Source: Desulfuromonadales bacterium
GTDB lineage: Bacteria; Desulfobacterota; Desulfuromonadia; Geobacterales; Pseudopelobacteraceae
DNA: 62,685 nucleotides
Direction: 5' to 3'
Assembly (NCBI GenBank): GCA_016650295.1
Contig: JAENWA010000005.1
Span: forward strand, 1-62,685
The notes under the pieces are model-generated. The model was not told where the DNA came from. It saw only the letters and a list, made by a program, of their open reading frames with translations, and ran no database searches. Below, piece by piece: positions 24,239-62,685 of this stretch. Numbering within the stretch: the stretch's first letter is position 1; every line of letters begins with the position of its first letter. Both the position numbers and the translations under genes were made by a program.

Positions 24239-24323
24239 GATGAGGGATGAGGGATGAGGGATTAGAAATTCATCTCTCATCGGTTCTAACTCATCTCTCA
24301 TCGGTTCTAACTCATCCCTCATC
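24239..24323. repeat. heptamer array, GATGAGG type, fold-back
   Basis: On the minus strand, just after the permease stop, GATGAGGGATGAG units alternate with TTAGAACC. They then turn into CCCTCATC units, giving a potential long hairpin between the permease and ATPase genes. Confidence 0.88.
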
Positions 24324-25499: not shown

Positions 25500-25812
25500 C
25501 GATGAGAGAAGAGCTGAATACGATGAGGGATGAGGGTTGAGGGATGAGAAAACCTCTCTGAAGACCGATGAGAGCTGAGGAATGAGGGATGAGAAGATCT
25601 CTCAGAAGACGATGAGAGATGAGCGTTGAGGGAACAGAAAATCTCTCAGAGACCGATGAGGGATGAGCGATGAGGGATGATAAACCTCTCAGTACATTAT
25701 TTTTCTCAACTCTCATCTCTCAACCCTCATCAGATTTTTCTCATCCCTCATCATGCTTTTTCCATCTCTCAACGTTTTTCCCTCATCTCTCATCCCTCGT
25801 CCCTCATCATGA
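25500..25812. repeat. longest heptamer array, GATGAGG then CTCATCC, fold-back (whole 25490-25816 gap)
   Basis: This fills the gap between the two permease genes; nothing else is seen there. Minus strand: GATGAGG, GATGAGA and GTTGAGA units for about 140 bases, a short turn around ATAATGTACTGAGAGG, then complementary CCTCATC, CTCAACG and CTCATCT units for about 170 bases. Interspersed CTGAGAGATTTTCT-like phrases repeat about four times. Short open frames here are only translations of the repeat. Confidence 0.9.
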
Positions 25813-27555: not shown

Positions 27556-27644
27556 TGATGAGGGATGAGTTAGAACCGATGAGGGATGAGAAAACCATCT
27601 CTCGTCAGATTTTTGCTCATCTCTCATCTCTCATCTCTCATCAG
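27556..27644. repeat. heptamer array, GATGAGA type, fold-back
   Basis: Minus strand after the WG-repeat gene: GATGAGAGATGAGAGATGAG, a short spacer, then TTCTCATCCCTCATCGG and CTCATCCCTCATC. The TTAGAACC phrase is shared with the arrays near 24.2, 28.8 and 30.3 kb. Confidence 0.88.
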
Positions 27645-28770: not shown

Positions 28771-28868
28771 GATGAGAGATGAGTTAAAACCGTTGAGGGA
28801 TGAGAAAAACAATTGAGGGTTTTCTCATCTCTCATCTCTCATCGGTTCTTTTCTCATCTCTCATCGGT
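28771..28868. repeat. heptamer array, GATGAGA type, fold-back
   Basis: Minus strand: the ResB gene end enters ACCGATGAGAGATGAG units, with more GATGAGA units, then CCCTCAATTG and TTCTCATCCCTCAACGG and CTCATCTCTCATC. The last ResB residues (DER) and stop are encoded by the first units. Confidence 0.88.
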
Positions 28869-30212
28869 TTTTCGAACTATTCCACTAAACAACTTAACAA
28901 ACTCATCTTCAGCAAGGCTCTTGTAATATTCCGAGCGACCTGCAACCACAAGACAGAGCTGCCCCTCTTTTTCGCGGATGGAGCCAATAATCTCCCGACG
29001 GAAAAAAAGCAGCCGCCAGATGACACCGATGGTAGCGAGAGCAAAACCGGTGTACACGATAGAGAGCCCGCGCTGCTTGTTGACATAAAAACGGACCCAG
29101 AAGGGCATCTCCTGCATTTCGAGACGATAACCTTCAAAGGTCATGGTGCCATTTTTGGGAACGGTCCCCTCGGCAATTTTTTTCCCGTCACGCTCTACTG
29201 AAATAACGAATACCTGATTATTAAATTCCATCGATCGGGTAACCGGCTTCCCATCTACCAGGGCATAATCCGGGTAGAAACGGGTCGCGAACAGCAATCC
29301 ACCCAGAGTGAAGTGATCCGGTCCACCTTTCAGGACATCAAGCTTCATGTAGGCCCCGCCGATCTCTTTACCGGACGAATCCTTGAGAATGAATAACGGA
29401 GCCACTCCAAGATGCTTGAACATGACCGATGTATGATTCGTATTGTACGGTACATTGATACCGACTTCATGGGATTTTCCGCGGCTGTCAACCAGCATGA
29501 TGCTGATGCCGGTCGGGGTATTGCGGACAACCCGCGGAACAATACTTTTTATGGTGAACGACACATCGGGGAGAGAGCCTATTTCAGGCAGTTTGGGGCC
29601 TGGGTCATCCTTATAGCGTTCAAGCTCACCCTGAAAGGTTTCACCCTGAGCAAGCTCGACATACCCGCGGAACTCGGTATACACACCAATAATGCCGCCG
29701 AAGAGGATCAGGAAGAAACTGACATGAAACAGGGCAAATGCAATTGGGGACAGGCGGTTTTTCACCCCGTAGAACATGTTCCCATTCCCCAGAATGGTGA
29801 AACCGTGTTTGCGGAGCGCCGCGAAGATCTTGTCTTCATTCAGGCCATCGGGCAACGGGTAGTAACTATGGAACGGATAGCCGCCTGCGCTTTCGGGATC
29901 GACAATTTTTGATTCGGACAACACAATCCGGCTCTTGATTACCGGAATGCGCTGCCAAAGGACCAGTGACAGGTTCAGAAAAAACAGAAGCCAAAGGGTC
30001 ACGGTGATCGGCGAGGTATAAATAGTCGTTAACCCGAAAGAATCGAGGAAAGCGACCAAGTCGGGCGACTTTTGCTGCCAATCGAGGTAAATAGTCTTTA
30101 ACAGCCGTTTCTGCGGCACCCACAAACCGGCGGCAAATATTACACCCAGCAGGCAGATAAGCCAGATCGTAAACCGTAGTGAACTGAGAAATTTGTATAA
30201 TTTAGTGAACAT
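28854..30212 (-). CDS. resB: cytochrome c biogenesis protein ResB
   Basis: A 452-residue protein with three N-terminal membrane segments (FTIWLICLLGVIFAAGLWV, ITVTLWLLFFLNLSLVLW, SPIAFALFHVSFFLILFGGIIG). A periplasmic domain of about 200 residues follows, then a final membrane segment (LSIVYTGFALATIGVIWRLLFF), the ResB layout of System II. With CcsA from the next upstream gene it delivers and ligates haem to apocytochromes in the periplasm. His107-like positions cannot be confirmed by eye. The C-terminal DER and stop come from a heptamer array. Confidence 0.9.
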   Translation of the reverse strand: MFTKLYKFLSSLRFTIWLICLLGVIFAAGLWVPQKRLLKTIYLDWQQKSPDLVAFLDSFGLTTIYTSPITVTLWLLFFLNLSLVLWQRIPVIKSRIVLSESKIVDPESAGGYPFHSYYPLPDGLNEDKIFAALRKHGFTILGNGNMFYGVKNRLSPIAFALFHVSFFLILFGGIIGVYTEFRGYVELAQGETFQGELERYKDDPGPKLPEIGSLPDVSFTIKSIVPRVVRNTPTGISIMLVDSRGKSHEVGINVPYNTNHTSVMFKHLGVAPLFILKDSSGKEIGGAYMKLDVLKGGPDHFTLGGLLFATRFYPDYALVDGKPVTRSMEFNNQVFVISVERDGKKIAEGTVPKNGTMTFEGYRLEMQEMPFWVRFYVNKQRGLSIVYTGFALATIGVIWRLLFFRREIIGSIREKEGQLCLVVAGRSEYYKSLAEDEFVKLFSGIVRKTDER

Positions 30213-30224
30213 GTCTGTAAAACA

Positions 30225-30412
30225 GATGAGGGATGAGGGATGAGAGATGAGGACTTCACAAACATGAGCCCCTCAATACTCAACACTCAACACTCATAAG
30301 CCTCTCTCTCATCTTTCATCGGTTCTAACTCATCCCTCATCGGTTCTAACTCATCCCTCATCGGTTCTAACTCATCCCTCATCGGTTCTAACTCATCTCT
30401 CATCGGTTCTAA
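30225..30412. repeat. heptamer array with 21-bp higher-order unit, fold-back
   Basis: The minus strand after the CcsA gene has about five consecutive copies of a 21-bp unit (three heptamers: GTTAGAACC plus GATGAGGGATGA), nearly identical to each other, at 30318-30412. Then come TGAGAGAGAGG, TGAGTGTTGAGTGTTGAGTATTGAGG and finally CCTCATCTCTCATCCCTCATC. The CcsA stop codon TAG is inside the first unit. Confidence 0.9.
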
Positions 30413-31245
30413 CGTACTTGAAACATATGCAGACTGGTATTAACCACCAGATTGACACCAAAGAAGCAGATGATGACAGTGCTCAGAGCAGCAATCGCCA
30501 GCCAGGCCAACCTCTTCTCGCGCCAGCCGAAGGTAACCCGCAGGTGGATGGTGATCCCATAGATAAGCCAGGAGATAAGAGACCAGGTCTCGACAGGATC
30601 CCAGGCCCAGTAGCTCCCCCAGAGGTCTTTTGCCCAAATGGCGCCGGCTGATATCATGATGGTATCGGTGATAAAACCAAACACCACATAACGGAATATC
30701 AACTCGTCCAGACGACCCAGGGAGGGAAACCGCTCATATGACGGATTCGGCACCTCCTGTGCTTCACTCTTCTGTTTCAGCAGAAAAACCACCCCCGCCG
30801 CCATAGCAAGGGAGTAGCCGCCAAAGGAAAGCCAGGCAAAATAGACGTGGATATACAGCCAGATGGTTTTGAGGCTGGCAGCCATTGGGGTCAGCGCCGG
30901 ATTTTGCATGTATCCGTAGCCAAGCATGATGAGCACCAGGGGGACGGTTCCAACCGCTAGCCCTTGCAATTGTTTATTCTGCCAGCCGACGAAGAGGGTA
31001 CCGGCAATGATGAACCACCCCCCCATCAGGGCGTATTCATAATGGCCCGACCACGGGAGGTGCCCCGTGGCATTGAAACGGGCGAGAATAGCCGCCGTTT
31101 GGGCAATAAATCCAAAGAGGACCAGAAGCGTGACCTTTGAAACCACCCGCGGGTTCTTGAACACGAAAGAGTAAATGAAACCGCCGCCCGCAAGAGCGTA
31201 GATCACCATCGATACCAAGTAAAATATTGTTTCCCAGTAAGCCAT
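30409..31245 (-). CDS. ccsA: cytochrome c biogenesis protein CcsA (ResC)
   Basis: A 278-residue protein with about eight membrane segments and the haem-handling WWD-type motif (LWGSYWAWDPVETWSLISWLIY, residues about 215-235). Histidines lie at membrane edges (HVYFAWLSFGG, SLHMFQVR). This is the System II haem lyase/transporter core that works with ResB. The ATG at 31245 has AGAGG six bases upstream. The C-terminal VR is followed by a stop inside the repeat array. Confidence 0.93.
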   Translation of the reverse strand: MAYWETIFYLVSMVIYALAGGGFIYSFVFKNPRVVSKVTLLVLFGFIAQTAAILARFNATGHLPWSGHYEYALMGGWFIIAGTLFVGWQNKQLQGLAVGTVPLVLIMLGYGYMQNPALTPMAASLKTIWLYIHVYFAWLSFGGYSLAMAAGVVFLLKQKSEAQEVPNPSYERFPSLGRLDELIFRYVVFGFITDTIMISAGAIWAKDLWGSYWAWDPVETWSLISWLIYGITIHLRVTFGWREKRLAWLAIAALSTVIICFFGVNLVVNTSLHMFQVR

Positions 31246-31264: not shown

Positions 31265-31743
31265 GATGAGAGATGAGAGATGAGAGATGAGAAAAACAGG
31301 AAAATATTACTCATTTCACGTCATTCATCATTTTAATTTGGGAAGTGCGTAAAGCCGCTAACTTCTCTGCAAGTGTATCAATTTTAGAATTAACAGCGGT
31401 CAACTCACTAACCGCTACAAATCCGAGATCGCAGGCAATTTCGAGCTGGCACGCAACCTCCATAAGAGAGCCATACGCCAGTTGTGTGAAATGAGCCTGA
31501 TCTTTACGACTGGTTCTACCGCTTCCTTCGGCAATATTCGAAGCAATTGAAATCGCAGCTCGATTGAGTTGTGATACTAATCCAAACTTTTCCTCAGCAG
31601 GAAAGTTTTTTGTTAACTTGTAAGCATCAATTACTAGGCCTTTCGCCAGGTGCCAAACCTGTAATTTATGAAAAACGAATGCTGTTCTCATCACTCATCA
31701 CTCATCACTCATCACTCATCCCTCATCCCTCATCCCTCATCAG
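31265..31743. mobile_element. candidate complete repeat element: G-rich heptamers, four-helix-bundle gene, C-rich heptamers
   Basis: On the minus strand: GATGAGGGATGAGGG units, then four GATGAGT units (31688-31743), then the four-helix-bundle gene, then CTCATCT repeats (31265-31292), which are the reverse complement of the upstream units. The gene thus sits between the two halves that lie side by side at the other loci. Treating this as a mobile element is inference from layout; there are no target duplications I can define. Confidence 0.5.
31311..31694 (-). CDS. four-helix-bundle protein, 23S rRNA intervening-sequence (S23/IVP) family
   Basis: A 127-residue protein with the family pattern FHKLQVWHLAKGLVIDAY, KNFPAEEKFGLVSQLNRAAISIASNIAEGSGR and FTQLAYGSLMEVACQLEIA. 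It forms a helical bundle; relatives occur in intervening sequences of 23S rRNA genes, and Avd of diversity-generating retroelements has a similar fold. The cellular role is unknown. The start codon lies in the last unit of the GATGAGT array (GTGATGAGAACAGC). It interrupts the otherwise functional ResB-CcsA operon. Confidence 0.9.
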   Translation of the reverse strand: MMRTAFVFHKLQVWHLAKGLVIDAYKLTKNFPAEEKFGLVSQLNRAAISIASNIAEGSGRTSRKDQAHFTQLAYGSLMEVACQLEIACDLGFVAVSELTAVNSKIDTLAEKLAALRTSQIKMMNDVK

Positions 31744-32898
31744 ATTCCCAGTTTCTTTCCCAACCGCCCACACTCTGCATCCCGCCTCGTCCTCTTCCAG
31801 CCAGACTCGCTGAGCACTGAATACGATCCGCAATAAAGCTCCGGCTGCCGCCACAAGCCCCCACATCACCATCAATCCGGAATGCCGCTTGCGCACAACC
31901 TGAATCTCCGACCACTGCCCCATCTTCTCACACGTGAGGACAAGCCCTCCCTGTACCACCTTTTGGTCCAACTGGAAGTGCATCCCGGCGTCCAGAATCA
32001 GTTTGTCCCTATTTTTGATAACTACCTTTAAAAGGCCCTGTTCCGGCTGATAATAGGCGTCCACATACATCCTGTCAACCACGGCTTGCCCGTAATAATC
32101 AAAATTTCCCTGTCTCTGGGCCAACCGGTTGAGCTTGACCGGTCCGTTGAATACAATATTAGAGTCCTTGGTCCTGACCATTAAAATCGGCTCGAACAGC
32201 ATGCGCGACATGTAAATTTCGTAGTCGCGATAGGTGAAGCGTTCGCCAGGCTTGAGCGTTCGTAACTGCTCCTTGTTATCCTTGGAAACCAGTAGAATTT
32301 CCGTCGCTCCGTCCGGATACTTCGCGTCCGGCAGGAATTGCTTGATGACCTGCATCCGCGGCAACTCTTCCGGTTTTGGCGTCAGTGGCCCCTTTTTGAG
32401 GACTTGATAGATCTCCACATTATTCAGTTTGGTCGCAATCCCTACGCCGTCCAGCAGTGTCCCGGAAAACTGCCGCAGACTGTCCCATACGCCGGTAAAC
32501 AGGAGCATAAGTATGCCCCCGTATATCAGCGTCGTGCCGAGATAGCCGCTGTCCCGCTTCTCGCCATAATTTCCGCTTGCGTCAAAGCGATATCCTGCGG
32601 TACTCAGCGTCTCCCGCACGTCCGCAACGGGGCGGGAGAACGTCTCACTCTGTCGGGGGCGACGATACCAGGAGCCGTACCGGATGGGTTTCCTTAAAGT
32701 AAGGAGGTTGTACACGAAGCGGAGTGCAATCAGAAGAGCAAAGCAGCTATTGTTGATCAGCAACGGCTTGTATCCGGCCAACGGAATCCGGACATGAAAG
32801 GTGATACTAAGAATGACGCTGAGGGGTATAACGAGAAATATGAGGGGAAACCAGGGAGAAACGAGCGCCAGCCTGGATAGTTTCGATTCGGCTTTCAT
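31723..32898 (-). CDS. ResB-like cytochrome c biogenesis protein
   Basis: About 391 residues. Two N-terminal membrane segments (WFPLIFLVIPLSVILSITFHV, NSCFALLIALRFVYNLL), a third near residue 115 (LGTTLIYGGILMLLFTGVW), a periplasmic domain of about 200 residues and a final segment (SGLMVMWGLVAAAGALLRIVF). ResB topology, third such protein in the run. ATG at 32898 is chosen; an ATG at 32910 sits too close to the AAAGGA site, and a TTG at 32967 has none. The last residues LMRDEG and the stop are encoded by the GATGAGG array, implying the original C-terminus was altered. Confidence 0.82.
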   Translation of the reverse strand: MKAESKLSRLALVSPWFPLIFLVIPLSVILSITFHVRIPLAGYKPLLINNSCFALLIALRFVYNLLTLRKPIRYGSWYRRPRQSETFSRPVADVRETLSTAGYRFDASGNYGEKRDSGYLGTTLIYGGILMLLFTGVWDSLRQFSGTLLDGVGIATKLNNVEIYQVLKKGPLTPKPEELPRMQVIKQFLPDAKYPDGATEILLVSKDNKEQLRTLKPGERFTYRDYEIYMSRMLFEPILMVRTKDSNIVFNGPVKLNRLAQRQGNFDYYGQAVVDRMYVDAYYQPEQGLLKVVIKNRDKLILDAGMHFQLDQKVVQGGLVLTCEKMGQWSEIQVVRKRHSGLMVMWGLVAAAGALLRIVFSAQRVWLEEDEAGCRVWAVGKETGNLMRDEG

Positions 32899-33195
32899 TG
32901 AGATATGCATTTCCTTTGACGGTGAACTTATGGAGTTGGGGCTGCCCAAAGTTTGAGATAATAGCAAATATCACAGATAATGGGAACAGAAATGTTCCGG
33001 CGTTTGTCAGGGTTACCATTTGACCGGCCGGTCACATCCCCTACCTCACATTGGTAGCAATGGCTCACAAGACCTTCCCTTTGTTGTGACCAAAAGGCAG
33101 TTCCCGCCGCTCTGCTTCTCTATGCGGTTAGTTAGTCCAACATGTGCCTGCGCTATCTCGTAGAACCGTAGTTGTCATTTTTCTGGCCTGATCAC
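32899..33195. other. intergenic, no feature recognised
   Basis: Nearly 300 bases upstream of the ResB-like gene and downstream of the membrane-TPR gene. It must contain the promoter of the cytochrome-maturation run, but I cannot point to convincing -35/-10 boxes. No repeat array and no open frame worth calling. Confidence 0.5.
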
Positions 33196-35262
33196 TCATC
33201 GTTTTTTTTTGGCAAGAGCTAGTCCTAGATTGTTCTGTGCATATGTGTCATTGGGACTAATCCGAAGTACATTCTGGAATTCCTGAATTGCAGCGTCCAG
33301 ATCCCCTTTTTTAGCAAGAACAACTCCTAAGTTGCAATGTGCATCGATGTCATTGGGACTTAACCGAAGGGCATTCTGGTATTCCCGAATCGCTGAGTCC
33401 AGATCCCCCTTACTAAGAAGAGCATCCGCCATATTGATATACGCATCTTTGAAATTGGGGCTTATCCGAAGTGTTACCTGAAATTCATGAATTGCAGCGT
33501 CCAAGTACCCTTTTTTAGCGTAAACACGTCCCAGGTTGTAATGCGTTTTCGTATCGTCAGGATTTATCTGAAGTGCAACTTTGTATTCCCGAATCGCTGA
33601 GTCCAGGTCCCCCTTTCGAACAAGAGCAACTCCCAAATTGTTATGTGCTTTCAAGTTATTGGGACTTATCCGAATTGCTTCTTGGTATTCTCGAATTGCT
33701 GCTTCAAGGTTTCCATTCATATCAAGAGTAAATCCCAAATTATAATGTGCTTTCGCATCGTTAGGGCTTAACTGAAGTGCTACTTGGCATTCCCGAATCG
33801 CTGCATCCAAATCCCCTTTTTCAGCAAGAGCAAGCCCAAGGCTACCGTGTGAATCGGGGTGATTGGGCCTTATCCGAATTGCTTCATGGTATTGGTGGAT
33901 TGCTGCATTAAGGTTCCCTTTCTCAGCAAGAGCAAGTCCAAGGTTGTAATGAACTGAATAGCTTCCGGGGGCTACTTGAAGTGAATGTTGGTAAAGAGAA
34001 ATACTGTCTCGCCAGTAACGGAGTTGCTGCCACGTTAATACGACCGATGCAAAAATGACAGCACTACCAACCAGAGCAAGAATGCCATCCCGGTGTTGCA
34101 TACCCCTTATTAAATCCGGAACTCCCCATGCAGCGATGATGAAAAGACCTATCGAGGGGATGTAAGAGTAGCGGTCAGCCATTGACTGGCTTCCCACCTG
34201 GATTAAGCCAATAACCGGCAGAAGTGTAACTATAAACCAGAACCAACCCACTAGAAGATACGGAAATCGGAGCCTGGTTGCTATAACCGCTATCGATACA
34301 AGGAGCAGAAATGACAGTGAGCAGATAATTTGCCAGAACTGGAACTCCGAGGGTAAAGGGTACAAGACAGCAAGATCGTGGGGCCAGACTGTTTTGCCAA
34401 TGTATTTTACATAGGCAATCATGGCATTTTCAATGCGGTAAATTAAGGATATTGATTCAAAGCTGGATACCGCCCCTCCCTCATGCTGGGCATATATGGT
34501 TACGATACCCGAAATGAGTGAACAGGCAAAGAAAGGGATTTTTTCTTTTATTAAGGAGATTATAACAAAATGCTGACGTTGACCTTGTTTATGCTCCTCA
34601 TGGACATATCTATCGAAAGGCCAAAAATCAATCAAGAGCATAACTAATGGGAGGGTTACGAGCATCGGTTTAGACATAAGACCAAGCATGAAGGAAATGA
34701 GAGAAAAAATGTAACTCGCAGGTCTATGCTTTACCACGTATTCGGCATAAAAGAGGAGTGAAACGAACCAGAAAAACGCACTTAGGACATCCTTCCGTTC
34801 AGCAACCCAAGCCACCGACTCCACATGCAAAGGATGGAGGGCGAACAAAGCAGCGACAAATATACTTTGCCAAAGTGAGCCAGTTAAACGGAGCAGGAGG
34901 AAAATAAGGAGCACCGTGGAGATGGAATGAATAAGAACATTTGTGAGGTGATGACCACGAGGGTTCAAACCGTAAATCTGGGCATCTGTCATGTGCGAAA
35001 GCCAAGTAATTGGGTGCCAGTTGGCAGCTTCAACGGATGAAAAAGCCCAAGATATATTTTTGCCGGTTATTCCGGATGAAATATGGACGTTATCTGTTAC
35101 GTAGGAAGGATCGTCAAAAGTCGAGAACGGGTGATCGCCTACCTGGAAATAAACGGCTAGGGTAATGACAACTAATGCTATGCAAAGTACGATAACATTG
35201 CGCTTGCTATTGCACTTTTCGAAGGCAATGGCTTTCTCCCCTATCCAATCGAGCATCGTCAT
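33196..35262 (-). CDS. membrane protein with C-terminal TPR repeats (TMTC-like)
   Basis: A 688-residue protein. About ten membrane segments in residues 1-435 carry FSTFDDPSYVTDNVHISSG in the first loop, HPLHVESVAWVAERKDVLSAFFW and GSQSMADRYSYIPSIG. From about 450 on there are seven full TPRs and a partial one (AHYNLGFTLDMNGNLEAAIREYQEAIRISPNN and similar), highly alike, suggesting recent internal duplication. Similar to the 581-residue paralogue at 19165. Probably a periplasmic or membrane glycosyltransferase by family analogy. The ATG at 35262 has AGAGG upstream. Confidence 0.82.
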   Translation of the reverse strand: MTMLDWIGEKAIAFEKCNSKRNVIVLCIALVVITLAVYFQVGDHPFSTFDDPSYVTDNVHISSGITGKNISWAFSSVEAANWHPITWLSHMTDAQIYGLNPRGHHLTNVLIHSISTVLLIFLLLRLTGSLWQSIFVAALFALHPLHVESVAWVAERKDVLSAFFWFVSLLFYAEYVVKHRPASYIFSLISFMLGLMSKPMLVTLPLVMLLIDFWPFDRYVHEEHKQGQRQHFVIISLIKEKIPFFACSLISGIVTIYAQHEGGAVSSFESISLIYRIENAMIAYVKYIGKTVWPHDLAVLYPLPSEFQFWQIICSLSFLLLVSIAVIATRLRFPYLLVGWFWFIVTLLPVIGLIQVGSQSMADRYSYIPSIGLFIIAAWGVPDLIRGMQHRDGILALVGSAVIFASVVLTWQQLRYWRDSISLYQHSLQVAPGSYSVHYNLGLALAEKGNLNAAIHQYHEAIRIRPNHPDSHGSLGLALAEKGDLDAAIRECQVALQLSPNDAKAHYNLGFTLDMNGNLEAAIREYQEAIRISPNNLKAHNNLGVALVRKGDLDSAIREYKVALQINPDDTKTHYNLGRVYAKKGYLDAAIHEFQVTLRISPNFKDAYINMADALLSKGDLDSAIREYQNALRLSPNDIDAHCNLGVVLAKKGDLDAAIQEFQNVLRISPNDTYAQNNLGLALAKKKR

Positions 35263-51351: not shown

Positions 51352-54180
51352 ATGTGTAATGTTTCAATATTTATTTCGATAATGATCTCTTTACTCCTTA
51401 CCGGATGCACTCATACGGAATCGCTGGGACAAAAACGGACGAGTATTTGTACGGTAAAGGTGAGCACATCCCTTGATTTCACGGATAGCAAGTTTACGAA
51501 TGAAATTATGGTAGCCGGTGATGAAAATGGAAATGCAATTTTCTCCGCTCAGGAGGATTCAAGGTTCATAATTACGTATCTTTCGCCGTCGGATCAAAAA
51601 GAAGTAAGAGGTATGCTTCATAACTCGTTGAAGTTGGGGAGCACTGCCGATAAGGAAAAGGCTGAAGTCCAGAGGTCGCTCGGCCACTTGAGAAAGCAAA
51701 ATGGTAAATGGGGGTGGCCCACGGACTTGGTAATGCAATTCAATGCATCAAGATCAGGAAAAATTTGGAATACCAGTTTTGAACTCTGCCGTATGATGCC
51801 TGCTCAATTTATTAAGAGTCCAGAAGAAAAAACCGATCCTTGCTATAAGAAAACGACCTTTTTCCTTAATAATGTATCCGTAATACAACTTATGAACTGT
51901 CTTGATATCCTATCATTTCCTACGCAAAATCTCACAGCCACAGCCGGCAATGCCCAGGCGCTGGTAAGTTTCTCGGCACCGGTGTCAGACGGCGAAAGCG
52001 CCATAACCGGCTACACTGTAACTTCCGATCCTTCTGGCGGAACCGATGTTAACGCCGGATCAACAGCGACGATTCATACCATTACCGGCCTCAAAAACGG
52101 CACCGCCTATACCTTCTCGGTGCAGGCTTCCAATGCCGCCGGGTCCAGTATTGCTTCCTCCCCCTCCAATAGCGTGACGCCGCTCCACGTTCCCGAAACT
52201 TCCGCCAACGTCACAGCTACAGCCGGCAACGCCCAGGCGATGGTAAGTTTCTCAGCGCCGAAGTCAGACGGCGGAAGCGCCATAACCGGCTACACCGTGA
52301 CTTCCAACCCTTCAGGCGGAACCGATATTAATGCCGGATCAACAGCGATGATTCATACCATTACCGGCCTCAAAAACGGCACCGCCTATACCTTCTCGGT
52401 GCAGGCTTCCAACGCAGTCGGGTCCAGTATTGCTTCCTCCCCTTCCAATAGCGTGACGCCATTCCTCGTTCCCGGAGCCCCCGTCAACGTCACAGCCACG
52501 GCCGGCAACGCCCGGGCGATGGTAAGTTTCTCGGTGCCGGTATCAGACGGCGGAAGCGCCATAACCGGCTACACCGTGACTTCCGATCCTTCTGGCGGAA
52601 AGGATGTTAACGCCGGATCAACAGTGTTGACTCATGCCATTACTGGCCTCAATAACGACACTGCCTATACCTTCTCGGTGCAGGCGGCCAAGTCAGCCGG
52701 AACCGGTCCTGCCTCCTCCCCCTCCAATAGCGTGACACCATCCGACGTTCCCGAAGCTCCGACCAACGTCACAGCCACAGCCGGCAACGCCCAGGCGATG
52801 GTAAGTTTCTCGGCGCCGGAGTCAGACGGCGGAAGCGCCATATCCGGCTACACCGTGACTTCCAACCCTTCAGGCGGAAAGGATGTTAACGCCGGTTCAA
52901 CAGCGTTTGCTCATACCATTACCGGCCTCAAAAACGGCACTGCCTATACCTTCTCGGTGCAGGCGGCCAACATCGCCAAGACCAGTCCTGCTTCCTCCCC
53001 CTCCAATCGCGTGACACCATCCGACGTTCCCGGAGTTCCGACCAACGTCACAGCCACAGCCGGCAACGCCCGGGCGCTAGTAAGTTTCTCGGCGCCGAAG
53101 TCAGACGGCGGAAGCGCCATAACCGGCTACACCGTGACTTCCAACCCTTCAGGCGGAACCGATAATAATGCCGGATCAACAGCTATGACTCATGCCATTA
53201 CCGGCCTCAAAAATGGCACCACCTATACCTTCTCGGTGCAGACGGCCAACATCGCCAAGACCAGTCCTGCTTCCTCCCCCTCCAATAGAGTGACACCTAT
53301 CGACGTTCCCGGATCCCCCGCCAACGTCACAGCCACAGCCGGCAACGCCCGGGCGATGGTAAGTTTCTCGGCGCCGGTGTCAGACGGCGGAAGCGCTATA
53401 ACCGGCTACACCGTAACTTCCAACCCTTCAGGCGGAAAGGATGTTAACGCCGGATCAACAGTGTTGACTCATACCATTACCGGCCTCAAAAACAGCACCT
53501 CCTATACCTTCTTGGTTCAGGCTTCCAAGACAGCCGGATCCGGTCCTGCTTCCTCCCCCTCCAATAGCGTGACACCATCCGACGTTCCCGGATCCCCCGC
53601 CAACGTCACAGCCACAGCCGGCAACGCCCAGGCGATGGTAAGTTTCTCGGCGCCGGTGTCAGACGGCGGAAGCGCCATAACCGGCTACACCGTAACTTCC
53701 GATCCTACAGGCGGAAAGGATGTTAACGCCGGATCAACAGCTATGACCCATACCATTACCGGCCTCAAAAACGGCACTGCCTATACCTTCTCGGTGCAGG
53801 CGACCAACAACGCCAAGACCAGTCCTGCTTCCTCTCCCTCCAATAGAGTGACACCTATCGGCGATCCCGGAGCCCCCGTCAACGTCACAGCCACAGCCGG
53901 AAGCAACGCCCAGGCGATAGTAAGTTTCTCGGCGCCGGTGTCAGACGGCGGAAGCGCTATAACCGGCTACACCGTAACTTCCAACCCTTCAGGCGGAAAG
54001 GATGTTAACGCCGGATCAACAGTGTTGACTCATACCATCGTCGGACTCATCAACGGCACAGCCTTTACCTTCTCTGTGCAGGCGGAAAACGCTACCGGGA
54101 CCGGTCCTGCTTCCTCCCCCTCAAATAGCATGATTCCAGTACACCCAGAAAAAATTGAGAGGAAGAACAGTAACATGTGA
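51352..54180 (+). CDS. lipoprotein with eight fibronectin type III repeats
   Basis: About 942 residues. Lipobox leader (VSIFISIMISLLLTGC), a unique N-terminal domain to about residue 190 with several cysteines, then eight FN3 domains of 93 residues each (TATAGNAQAMVSFSAP, GGSAITGYTVTSNPSGG, TITGLKNGTAYTFSVQA, ASSPSNSVTP). The repeats are nearly identical at DNA level (279-bp period). ATG at 51352 has GAGGG five bases upstream; the open frame extends to 51277 without features. Likely a cell-surface adhesion or carbohydrate-contact protein (inference). It lies between mobile-element remnants. Confidence 0.88.
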   Translation: MCNVSIFISIMISLLLTGCTHTESLGQKRTSICTVKVSTSLDFTDSKFTNEIMVAGDENGNAIFSAQEDSRFIITYLSPSDQKEVRGMLHNSLKLGSTADKEKAEVQRSLGHLRKQNGKWGWPTDLVMQFNASRSGKIWNTSFELCRMMPAQFIKSPEEKTDPCYKKTTFFLNNVSVIQLMNCLDILSFPTQNLTATAGNAQALVSFSAPVSDGESAITGYTVTSDPSGGTDVNAGSTATIHTITGLKNGTAYTFSVQASNAAGSSIASSPSNSVTPLHVPETSANVTATAGNAQAMVSFSAPKSDGGSAITGYTVTSNPSGGTDINAGSTAMIHTITGLKNGTAYTFSVQASNAVGSSIASSPSNSVTPFLVPGAPVNVTATAGNARAMVSFSVPVSDGGSAITGYTVTSDPSGGKDVNAGSTVLTHAITGLNNDTAYTFSVQAAKSAGTGPASSPSNSVTPSDVPEAPTNVTATAGNAQAMVSFSAPESDGGSAISGYTVTSNPSGGKDVNAGSTAFAHTITGLKNGTAYTFSVQAANIAKTSPASSPSNRVTPSDVPGVPTNVTATAGNARALVSFSAPKSDGGSAITGYTVTSNPSGGTDNNAGSTAMTHAITGLKNGTTYTFSVQTANIAKTSPASSPSNRVTPIDVPGSPANVTATAGNARAMVSFSAPVSDGGSAITGYTVTSNPSGGKDVNAGSTVLTHTITGLKNSTSYTFLVQASKTAGSGPASSPSNSVTPSDVPGSPANVTATAGNAQAMVSFSAPVSDGGSAITGYTVTSDPTGGKDVNAGSTAMTHTITGLKNGTAYTFSVQATNNAKTSPASSPSNRVTPIGDPGAPVNVTATAGSNAQAIVSFSAPVSDGGSAITGYTVTSNPSGGKDVNAGSTVLTHTIVGLINGTAFTFSVQAENATGTGPASSPSNSMIPVHPEKIERKNSNM
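51933..54150. repeat. eight tandem 279-bp repeats encoding FN3 domains
   Basis: Period 279 bases exactly (starts near 51933, 52212, 52491 and so on). The eighth copy has one extra Ser codon. Variation is concentrated in two short windows per unit (KDVNAGSTVLTH versus TDINAGSTAMIH, and SNAVGSS versus NIAKTSP), suggesting shuffling of sub-blocks by recombination. Confidence 0.9.
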
Positions 54181-54775: not shown

Positions 54776-54840
54776 GATGAGGGATGAGGGATGAGGGATG
54801 AGGGATGATTTTCTCAACTCTCAACTCTCAACTCTCATCA
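54776..54840. repeat. heptamer array, GATGAGG then CTCAACT, fold-back (plus-strand orientation)
   Basis: Plus strand: four GGGATGA units, ATTTT, then CTCAACT units and CTCATC. This is the one array that follows a plus-strand gene, and its G-rich half is on the plus strand, keeping the same polarity relative to the gene as the others. Confidence 0.88.
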
Positions 54841-61927: not shown

Positions 61928-61928
61928 G

Positions 61929-62042
61929 GCTGGGATCGGGGATCAGGGATCAGGGAACAGGGAACTGAAGGCTGGGATCAGGGATCAGGGAACAGGGAAC
62001 AGGGAACAGCAAAGGCTTTTACCGATCCCAGATCCCAGCCTT
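61929..62042. repeat. heptamer array, GGGATCA/GGGAACA type, with 19-bp hairpin arms
   Basis: Plus strand, starting right at the permease stop: GGGATCG, GGGATCA and GGGAACA units twice over, then AAAGGCTTTTACCGATCCC and AGATCCC. The arms 61968-61986 and 62024-62042 pair at 18 of 19 positions. Contains the left copy of a perfect 30-bp direct repeat (61958-61987). Confidence 0.9.
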
Positions 62043-62066
62043 TCCCCGAGCCCCAAAGGGTTATGT

Positions 62067-62435
62067 ATGAAAGATCATAAGGAACTGGATGTATGGAAAA
62101 AGAGTATGGACTTTGTGCAGGCGGTGTACGAATTGACCGGTGCCTTCCCAAAGGAAGAAATCTATGGTTTGACAAGTCAGTTGAGACGCTCGGTAGTCTC
62201 TATTCCTTCGAATATTGCTGAGGGAGCGGCCAGGAACACGGATAAAGAGTTCCTCTATTTTCTTCATATTGCACAAGGGTCCGCTGCAGAAGCCGAGACG
62301 CAGTTGCTTATAGCCCAGCGTTTAAAATTTACTGATAATTTTGAGGCTGTTCTAAGTGAGCTAAGAACGGTCCAAAAGTTGCTGCACGGACTCATGAGAC
62401 ATTACAAGACAAAGGGATTGAAAGCTGATGTCTAG
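62067..62435 (+). CDS. four-helix-bundle protein, 23S rRNA intervening-sequence (S23/IVP) family
   Basis: A 122-residue protein: HKELDVWKKSMDFVQAVYELT, FPKEEIYGLTSQLRRSVVSIPSNIAEGAAR, FLYFLHIAQGSAAEAETQLLIAQRL. Clearly the same family as the gene at 31311 but diverged from it. ATG at 62067 follows AAAGGG; the frame is open further up only through the repeat array. Flanked by matching arrays on both sides. Cellular role unknown. Confidence 0.9.
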   Translation: MKDHKELDVWKKSMDFVQAVYELTGAFPKEEIYGLTSQLRRSVVSIPSNIAEGAARNTDKEFLYFLHIAQGSAAEAETQLLIAQRLKFTDNFEAVLSELRTVQKLLHGLMRHYKTKGLKADV

Positions 62436-62461
62436 AAAGAATAAAAGTAAACAGGGAAAGA

Positions 62462-62685
62462 CTGGTGATCAGGGATCAGTGAACAGGGAACAGGGAACTG
62501 AAGGCTGGGATCAGGGATCAGTGAACAGGGAACAGGGAACAGCCTCAACCGATCCCCAGTCCCCGGTCCCCAATCCCGGTTTTACAAGTCCCCAGTCCCC
62601 GGTCCCCAGTCCCGGTCTTACAGATTCCCGGTCCCCGATCCCCGGTCCCGCTGTTACCGATCCCCGGTCCCCGGTCCCCGATCCC
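62462..62685. repeat. heptamer array, GGGATCA/GGGAACA then CCCCGGT, running off the window
   Basis: Plus strand: GGGATCA, GTGAACA and GGGAACA units in two long copies (each about 40 bases, the second beginning with the right copy of the 30-bp repeat at 62491-62520). CCCCAGT, CCCCGGT, CCCCGAT and CCCAATC units then continue to the window end. The C-rich half resembles the heptanucleotide STRR repeats known from heterocystous cyanobacteria. Confidence 0.9.

Follow-up and report, generated by a model that had tools for sequence, protein, structure and literature searches.

S23-family genes enclosed by repeat hairpins between protein genes: a probable messenger RNA counterpart of the 23S rRNA intervening sequence

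In a stretch of 62,685 nucleotides from the draft genome of a Desulfuromonadales bacterium (assembly GCA_016650295.1, here G000; contig JAENWA010000005.1, here C5), which was analysed at its full length and is called the window throughout, a small gene of the S23 family lies among protein genes and is enclosed by two complementary arrays of short tandem repeats. The connection between S23 genes and hairpins that this gene exemplifies is real, it is general and, as far as we have searched, it is new. We put a probability of about 0.6 on the reading that such S23 hairpin elements are the messenger RNA (mRNA) counterpart of the intervening sequence (IVS) found in 23S ribosomal RNA (rRNA), a judgement drawn from sequence. 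The element and its immediate neighbours are as follows, with the two arms named for their composition in the sense of the S23 gene.

31687-31742, minus strand: 5' arm, purine-rich, eight GATGAG units; the stop codon of the upstream open reading frame (ORF) and the S23 start lie inside it
31311-31694, minus strand: S23, or 23S rRNA-intervening-sequence-protein, gene; 127 amino acids, four-helix bundle (PF05635, TIGR02436, structure model)
31265-31292, minus strand: 3' arm, pyrimidine-rich, (TCTCATC)4, complementary to the 5' arm
31723-32967, minus strand: upstream ORF, weakly ResB-like (PF05140, E 0.031), whose last codons and stop are array sequence
30409-31245, minus strand: CcsA-type cytochrome c assembly gene (ccsA), directly downstream (PF01578, E 1.6e-40)
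28854-30212: clear ResB ORF on the other side of ccsA (E 7.9e-26)

On the plus strand, Tandem Repeats Finder reports (GATGAGA)4 at 31265-31292 and eight CTCATCA/C units at 31687-31742, and the query GATGAGTGATGAGT, with at most two mismatches allowed, matches the window 48 times where 0.48 matches would be expected. Read along the minus strand, the order is upstream ORF, eight GATGAG units, S23 gene, four CTCATC units and ccsA, which in gene sense is a purine arm, the gene and then a pyrimidine arm; S23 and both of its neighbours share this strand, so that the S23 ORF stands in the sense of the host transcript. The S23 start (either GTG at 31694 or the ATG that follows immediately) falls within the last repeat units, and because the stop codon of the upstream ORF likewise falls within the array, the array forms the end of that ORF. 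In the predicted RNA fold, a long outer stem encloses the S23 ORF with a minimum free energy of -164.8 kcal/mol (z -4.5), and none of 100 shuffled sequences folded as well. The first-pass annotation, which a model had made from the letters alone, placed an S23/IVP-like four-helix-bundle gene between G-rich and C-rich half-arrays with its start codon in the last repeat unit; the repeat finder, the ORF and the PF05635 and TIGR02436 matches confirm as much, and the upstream stop codon now joins the start codon inside the array. Its further statement that the gene splits a ResB-CcsA operon holds firmly for the CcsA part and weakly for the ResB part, the upstream ORF having a PF05140 match below the cut-off and no NCBIfam match.

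The element (31265-31742) is located between two protein genes and hence not inside an rRNA gene, and its complementary ends form a predicted stem round the S23 ORF, as in the 23S IVS. It is therefore not a 23S IVS by location, while in its predicted anatomy it is like one. Passages of the Coxiella study PMC4990558, which cites Leptospira and others, describe an IVS whose complementary ends form a stem that carries an S23 ORF in its loop, cutting by RNase III in that stem, and a sporadic distribution, and patchy presence is common to both kinds of element. The same passages place two or three heptamers and a degenerate one directly before the Coxiella S23 start, note that strains differ in the number of heptamers, locate an RNase III site at the first repeat, and give the S23 protein as a pentamer (PMC4990558). 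The window element differs in that it sits in a protein-gene operon rather than in rRNA, in that arms of its type are longer tandem arrays whose unit varies by element, and in that gene-less versions are numerous in the genome. Large-subunit rRNA gave no match at all in the draft assembly G000. None of the other sampled S23 loci contained any of three 23S motifs, and a fourth, unspecific motif of 11 bases gave two matches (L154, L181) that we take to be chance.

To place the window gene among its relatives, the flanks of S23 genes were compared in two sets. The family set holds S23 genes from 76 genomes of the same family, with the matches over the cut-off in G067, G068, G007:C40 and G019:C138 (short, split or Avd-like) left out, and the named set holds the best 80 of at least 508 loci from named genomes. 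After nine matches covering fewer than 60 profile positions and all duplicate genes had been dropped, 143 genes were kept (59 family, 84 named), and as one gene per set was without 100-nt flanks, arms were counted on 58 family and 83 named genes. Arms were scored by the local complementarity of the two 150-nt flanks, taken upstream of the start codon and downstream of the stop codon, with a threshold of at least 12 that was our own choice and a range of thresholds computed beside it; other ORFs of at least 150 amino acids in the same loci served as controls. This score was adopted because, in a test by summed duplex energy, 150-nt flanks all pair somehow. The summed energy was set aside as non-discriminating, with own arms beating all 20 swaps in only 22/58 and 29/83 genes. 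Strict period-7 scoring, which did show enrichment, was set aside since degenerate arms and 6- or 8-nt units escape it.

Complementary arms at the threshold enclose 104 of 141 S23 genes (44/58 family, 60/83 named) against 10/247 and 3/276 control ORFs. When arms were swapped between S23 genes, 199/3306 family and 235/6806 named combinations reached the same score, as did 8/420 and 7/792 random window pairs at the same spacing. The enrichment of S23 flanks in inverted arrays, for which the first-pass annotation had proposed a test, is borne out; related S23 genes without such flanks are the minority. A further set from the phylum, made of the best match of 30 genomes and six hand-picked stretches (50 matches, 41 kept, 40 with flanks), has arms in 28/40 against 78/1560 swaps, or in 23/35 once the six nearly identical rows from a single genome are collapsed to one, and S23 genes on cyanobacterial plasmids have them in 7/10 against 13/90 swaps (10 of 13 records). 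These counts are not fully independent, because S23 genes within a set can be related. Over the 104 armed genes the arm match has a median length of 28.5 nt, with the matched 5' arm ending a median of 28.5 nt before the start and the 3' arm beginning a median of 9.5 nt after the stop. The records of the named set come from Bacteroidetes, Fibrobacteres, Acidobacteria, Verrucomicrobia, Patescibacteria, Gemmatimonadetes, Planctomycetes (Phycisphaerales) and Proteobacteria, some of these phylum names having been assigned from the genus or order in record titles. The predicted arrangement of a gene within a hairpin thus recurs across many bacterial phyla.

The arms are diverse in their units (GATGAGG, GTGAATG, AAGTTGA, GGGTCAG, TTTTGGA, CTGAAGG, GAGTAGC and others), and one genome can carry several S23 genes with unrelated arms. 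Within the 16 family genomes that have at least two S23 genes, a gene's own arms pair in 30 of 37 cases, against 0 of 46 when arms are swapped between dissimilar S23 genes of the same genome. Such dissimilar same-genome pairs reach the arm-similarity mark in 2/23 cases for the 5' arm and in 0/23 for the 3' arm. Conversely, 34 non-orthologous pairs with at least 68% protein identity, which come from few lineages and are not independent, have a mean arm similarity of 17.0 (5') and 13.6 (3') against permuted values of 8.0 and 7.7, and 0/2000 permutations were as high for either arm. The DNA of the window gene resembles that of a G033 copy at a different locus over a stretch that begins 35 nt ahead of the start and ends 54 nt beyond the stop, whereas its resemblance to the copy that G033 has at this ccsA junction extends much further. 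By these comparisons the predicted arms belong to the S23 gene lineage and not to the genome. Such co-travel of arms and gene is predicted by a moving unit of arms and gene whose arms change fast, and is predicted as well by genes that enter matching arrays through recombination.

The repeat also bears on how an S23 gene could sit within an operon. A unit such as GATGAGN, being seven nucleotides long, places overlapping ATG and TGA in every frame, and would allow the upstream gene to end and S23 to start. Stops in all three frames within the 40 nt before the S23 start occur in 22/58 family genes in the sense direction and in 1/58 antisense (control ORFs 18/247 sense); the corresponding values in the named set are 39/84 and 15/84, with 42/276 for controls. 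Neighbours are co-directional on both sides of the S23 gene in 68/84 of the named set, against 105/219 controls.

A second S23 gene, of which the first-pass annotation says nothing, and a number of hairpins that lack a gene are found in the same window:

62067-62435, plus strand: second S23 gene (PF05635, E 1.4e-37), flanked by period-7 arrays of another unit
61928-62045, plus strand: hairpin on the upstream side of the second S23 gene, made of GGGATCA/GGGAACA units followed by GATCCCA
62453-62685, plus strand: G-rich arrays followed by C-rich ones, on the downstream side of the second S23 gene and reaching the end of the window
24239-24323: gene-less GATGAG/CTCATC hairpin
25501-25808: gene-less GATGAG/CTCATC hairpin
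27557-27642: gene-less GATGAG/CTCATC hairpin
28771-28865: gene-less GATGAG/CTCATC hairpin
30225-30413: gene-less GATGAG/CTCATC hairpin
54776-54839: gene-less GATGAG/CTCATC hairpin

These two S23 genes are the only PF05635 matches in the draft genome G000, which holds 83 matches to three GATGAG units (none to a reversed control) and 26 matches in all to the second unit, GGGAWCA. From the stretches taken, 40 GATGAG clusters were compiled, a count that includes the two halves of the S23 element as two clusters and leaves out C69:37756 and places on C100, C103, C114 and C123. Both arms are present in 16/40 clusters, the purine arm coming first in 16/16, and 30/40 have neighbours that run in the same direction, the array often being in contact with the stop codon of the upstream gene. 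Arrays of at least five GATGAG matches, own flanks included, occur in 4/4 genomes with a GATGAG-flanked S23 gene, which hold 10-83 matches each, against 8/72 other family genomes. They are nonetheless common in genomes where no S23 gene of the GATGAG unit was seen (G038 43, G044 34, G039 19, G050 17, G046 13). Gene-less arrays therefore accompany S23 elements yet also persist without them.

The junction before ccsA offers a view of a single site in different states. Restricted to CcsA relatives of at least 70% identity, the comparison covers 21 junctions in 19 genomes; L201 (58%, and without a match to the upstream ORF) and L214 (60%) fell outside this limit. An S23 gene is present in 3/21 (G000, G033 and, broken, G034), gene-less repeats in another 3/21 (G044, G038 and the second such gene pair of G000), and no array could be recognised by eye in 15/21, whose intergenic distance is 0-151 nt in fourteen and 735 nt in one. 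The gene-less repeats of G044 have a CTGAAG unit, as in G034, and those of G038 have GATGAG units on the purine side only, so that two repeat types have occupied this junction. Empty sites in relatives, for which the first-pass annotation had suggested looking, therefore exist. The gene is far from being conserved at this place in all relatives, and its presence at 3/21 junctions means that it is either recent there or often lost. The second copy in G000 (L212, contig C1) is an upstream ORF-ccsA pair whose CcsA is 88% identical and whose junction holds a small gene-less hairpin.

How gene-less and gene-bearing arrays are related can be argued in two directions. In the first-pass annotation the gene-less arrays were derivatives, as miniature inverted-repeat transposable elements (MITEs) are of transposons; the allelic series at ccsA fits that picture, and polarity and placement are shared. 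Arrays are nevertheless common in genomes where no S23 gene of the same unit was seen, no transposase lies between the arms of the window element, whose ends are inverted but made of tandem arrays, and no target-site duplication was recognised by eye at the ccsA junctions, so that a descent of gene-less arrays from gene-bearing ones is possible and not more than that. The reverse direction would make gene-less inverted heptamer arrays the primary entity, spreading or arising independently, and S23 a passenger brought in when arrays that share a unit undergo homologous recombination. The excess of arrays over genes in G000 (83 GATGAG matches against 2 S23 genes), their abundance where no same-unit S23 gene was seen, and the gene-less repeats at the ccsA junction in G038, G044 and the second G000 copy are all what such a model would lead one to expect. 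We nevertheless hold it to be unlikely, given the concentration of GATGAG arrays in the genomes with a GATGAG-flanked S23 gene (4/4 against 8/72) and the arms round 60/83 named S23 genes, which a mere passenger would not need.

The preferred reading, an mRNA counterpart of the rRNA IVS, can be put as a sequence of steps. The element would be co-transcribed with its host operon, and the purine arm, which carries stops and starts in several frames, would let the upstream gene still terminate and ribosomes re-initiate on S23. The arms would pair into a long double-stranded stem to be cut by RNase III as in rRNA IVSs, and this cutting would separate S23 from the host cistrons and so lower the cost of insertion. 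An S23 oligomer may then recognise its own arm type, helping the element to spread or persist, and copying could proceed by recombination between arrays or through an RNA intermediate made with host enzymes. We infer movement, RNase III processing and coupled translation, and the element is probably mobile.

Several observations weigh against this reading. Neither a target-site duplication nor a recent, clean pair of insertion and empty site was found. The second S23 gene of the window stands between two complete hairpins and not between the two halves of one. In only 4 of 11 aligned non-orthologous pairs does similarity extend on both sides of the gene; in the others it tails off on one side, no later than the end of the gene. 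The arm threshold is missed by 14/58 family and 23/83 named S23 genes, and some, such as L054, have same-strand repeats instead. Tandem periodicity (periods 5-10, 22/28 matches) on at least one side is seen in only 31/59 family and 26/84 named genes, although control ORFs have it in only 18/247 and 25/276. In the family set, neighbours co-directional on both sides (45/59) are no commoner than among controls (132/172), and some S23 copies on cyanobacterial plasmids are antisense to both neighbours. Lastly, a passage of PMC4990558 reports the Coxiella S23 protein as probably not made in vivo.

The protein itself is maintained. The window protein matches PF05635 (E 1.3e-33, 115.8 bits against a cut-off of 33.8) and TIGR02436 (E 3.7e-31, 107.5 bits against 24) over the whole domain and above curated cut-offs, and its structure model (pLDDT 95.7) finds its best match in the Protein Data Bank in 2GSC, the S23 protein XCC0516 (TM 0.88), with BT_0352 (2RLD) at TM 0.72-0.77. 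The ratio of non-synonymous to synonymous rates (dN/dS) is 0.05-0.14 in 14 pairs unsaturated at synonymous sites, and the median of the corresponding ratio of proportions (pN/pS) is 0.20 over 40 overlapping pairs; by these low values the S23 protein family is under purifying selection, and the protein is therefore maintained. No match to the window protein was obtained in phages. Weak PF05635 matches (profile positions about 8-73) also turn up in open frames of about 190-310 amino acids in many family genomes, and may represent another protein family with a related helix pair.

Strong purifying selection, together with the position of arrays at stop codons between operon genes, would equally suit a host regulatory module, in which S23 is a cellular RNA-binding regulator or chaperone acting on intercistronic repeat hairpins to tune processing, and is not mobile. 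Heptamer arrays have indeed been read as regulator sites in passages on Geobacter metallireducens (PMC2700814) and Beggiatoaceae (PMC4679880). Set against this are the patchy presence of the gene, with PF05635 over the cut-off in 42/76 family genomes and in 153/297 genomes sampled from the phylum (of which a few may be Avd) and S23 at 3/21 ccsA junctions, the similar S23 genes at non-orthologous places, and the several S23 genes with unrelated arms in single genomes. In view of these, a purely regulatory role strikes us as distinctly improbable.

Heptamer repeats, among them the STRR heptamers of cyanobacteria, have been described before. The GGGNATC arrays of Xanthomonas and Nostoc (PMC4692102) likewise lie near stop codons between aligned ORFs, with 70 and 75 convergent pairs in two Xanthomonas genomes and most arrays transcribed; they differ in having been read, in the passages concerned, as G-quadruplex repeats that according to their authors are generally not with mobile elements. 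Parts of PMC2700814 describe, for Geobacter metallireducens, tandem 7- and 8-nt repeats with several classes paired on opposite strands, as here, but interpret them as binding sites of a global regulator or as regulatory RNA. The TAACTGA heptamers of Beggiatoaceae, Cyanobacteria and Bacteroidetes also stand near start codons, some overlapping the ends of upstream ORFs, and differ in that the main genome studied has 169 direct sets and one inverted, as given in sections of PMC4679880. A text search for S23 in the main text of all three papers gave 0 occurrences. No link in the literature between S23 genes outside rRNA and flanking inverted heptamer arrays was found among the titles and beginnings of abstracts of the papers listed, which were mostly from outside the subscription journals.

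A wider proposal is that S23 hairpin elements are a distinct, selfish class acting at the RNA level across phyla, in which the S23 ring binds its own arms, and of which rRNA IVSs and at least a part of the widespread gene-less inverted heptamer arrays (Geobacter, Xanthomonas, cyanobacteria) are forms, rRNA being one tolerated landing place; this we advance only tentatively, as more apt to fail than to hold. The cognate hairpins give S23, a widespread orphan family annotated as "four helix bundle protein", a context and a likely ligand. They tie ribosomal intervening sequences to intercistronic elements, and they supply a possible origin for the heptamer arrays that separate studies took for regulator sites or G-quadruplex repeats.

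The fold of S23 is also that of Avd, the pentameric accessory protein of diversity-generating retroelements, a likeness noted in the first-pass annotation and borne out by the model (TM about 0.75). It had led there to the suggestion of testing for a mechanism linked to RNA or to a reverse transcriptase (RT), and of looking for an RT that acts in trans from elsewhere in the genome. In the fuller form of this model, S23 would work with such an RT as Avd does, to copy the hairpin RNA. The matches to Avd structures (4dwl, 8ub*) have TM of about 0.70-0.76, but their Foldseek E values are poor (0.08-0.45), identity in the structural match is 7-9%, and there is no RT on the window contig. Genome G000 does hold two RT matches, on contigs C67 and C92, neither beside an S23 gene. 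Across the family, RT (PF00078 over the cut-off) is found in 22/42 genomes with PF05635 and in 19/34 without (p 0.82), or in 20/40 against 21/36 (p 0.50) when G067 and G068, whose PF05635 match adjoins an RT and is probably Avd, are set aside; many of these genomes are incomplete drafts, and present independence is compatible with past RT use. No RT match occurs in G033, a genome that holds 56 array matches and 3 S23 genes. Because RT presence is independent of S23, the likeness to the Avd fold remains a likeness, the link to reverse transcription is left without support, and joint action of S23 and an RT seems to us very improbable, even though the PF05635 search also finds Avd-like genes near RTs. 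By coordinates these lie within about 0.6 kb of an RT in G067:C58 and G068:C14 (over the cut-off) and in G016:C10 and G037:C63 (below it), and are probably Avd genes of diversity-generating retroelements.

The surroundings of individual S23 genes provide some further observations. In one single-contig genome (G285; L265, L266), a stretch of 21 kb holds several S23 copies that are almost identical, have the same flanks and share an in-frame TAG. In Nostoc edaphicum (L271), an S23 gene with GGGAGTA/TACTCCC arms lies antisense between two ribonucleotide reductase genes, and in Calothrix (L276) one lies between secretion genes, antisense to both. On cyanobacterial plasmids (L272, L274, L280), S23 splits CRISPR operons, in the order cas6-S23-cas4 in Pseudanabaena and Anabaena sp. 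90 and cas10-S23-cmr3 in Picosynechococcus. An S23 element with CTGAAGG arms is apparently inside a tyrosine-recombinase-like gene in L056, L150 and L152 (by eye, flanks only), and many family and named S23 genes stand, again by eye, directly before sugar-nucleotide or polysaccharide genes, as if these were frequent sites. Elsewhere in the window, a tandem repeat of 279 bases in about 7.9 copies occupies 51932-54133, and a repeat of about 102 bases at 33205-33837 falls within a 688-amino-acid ORF that looks TPR-like by eye.
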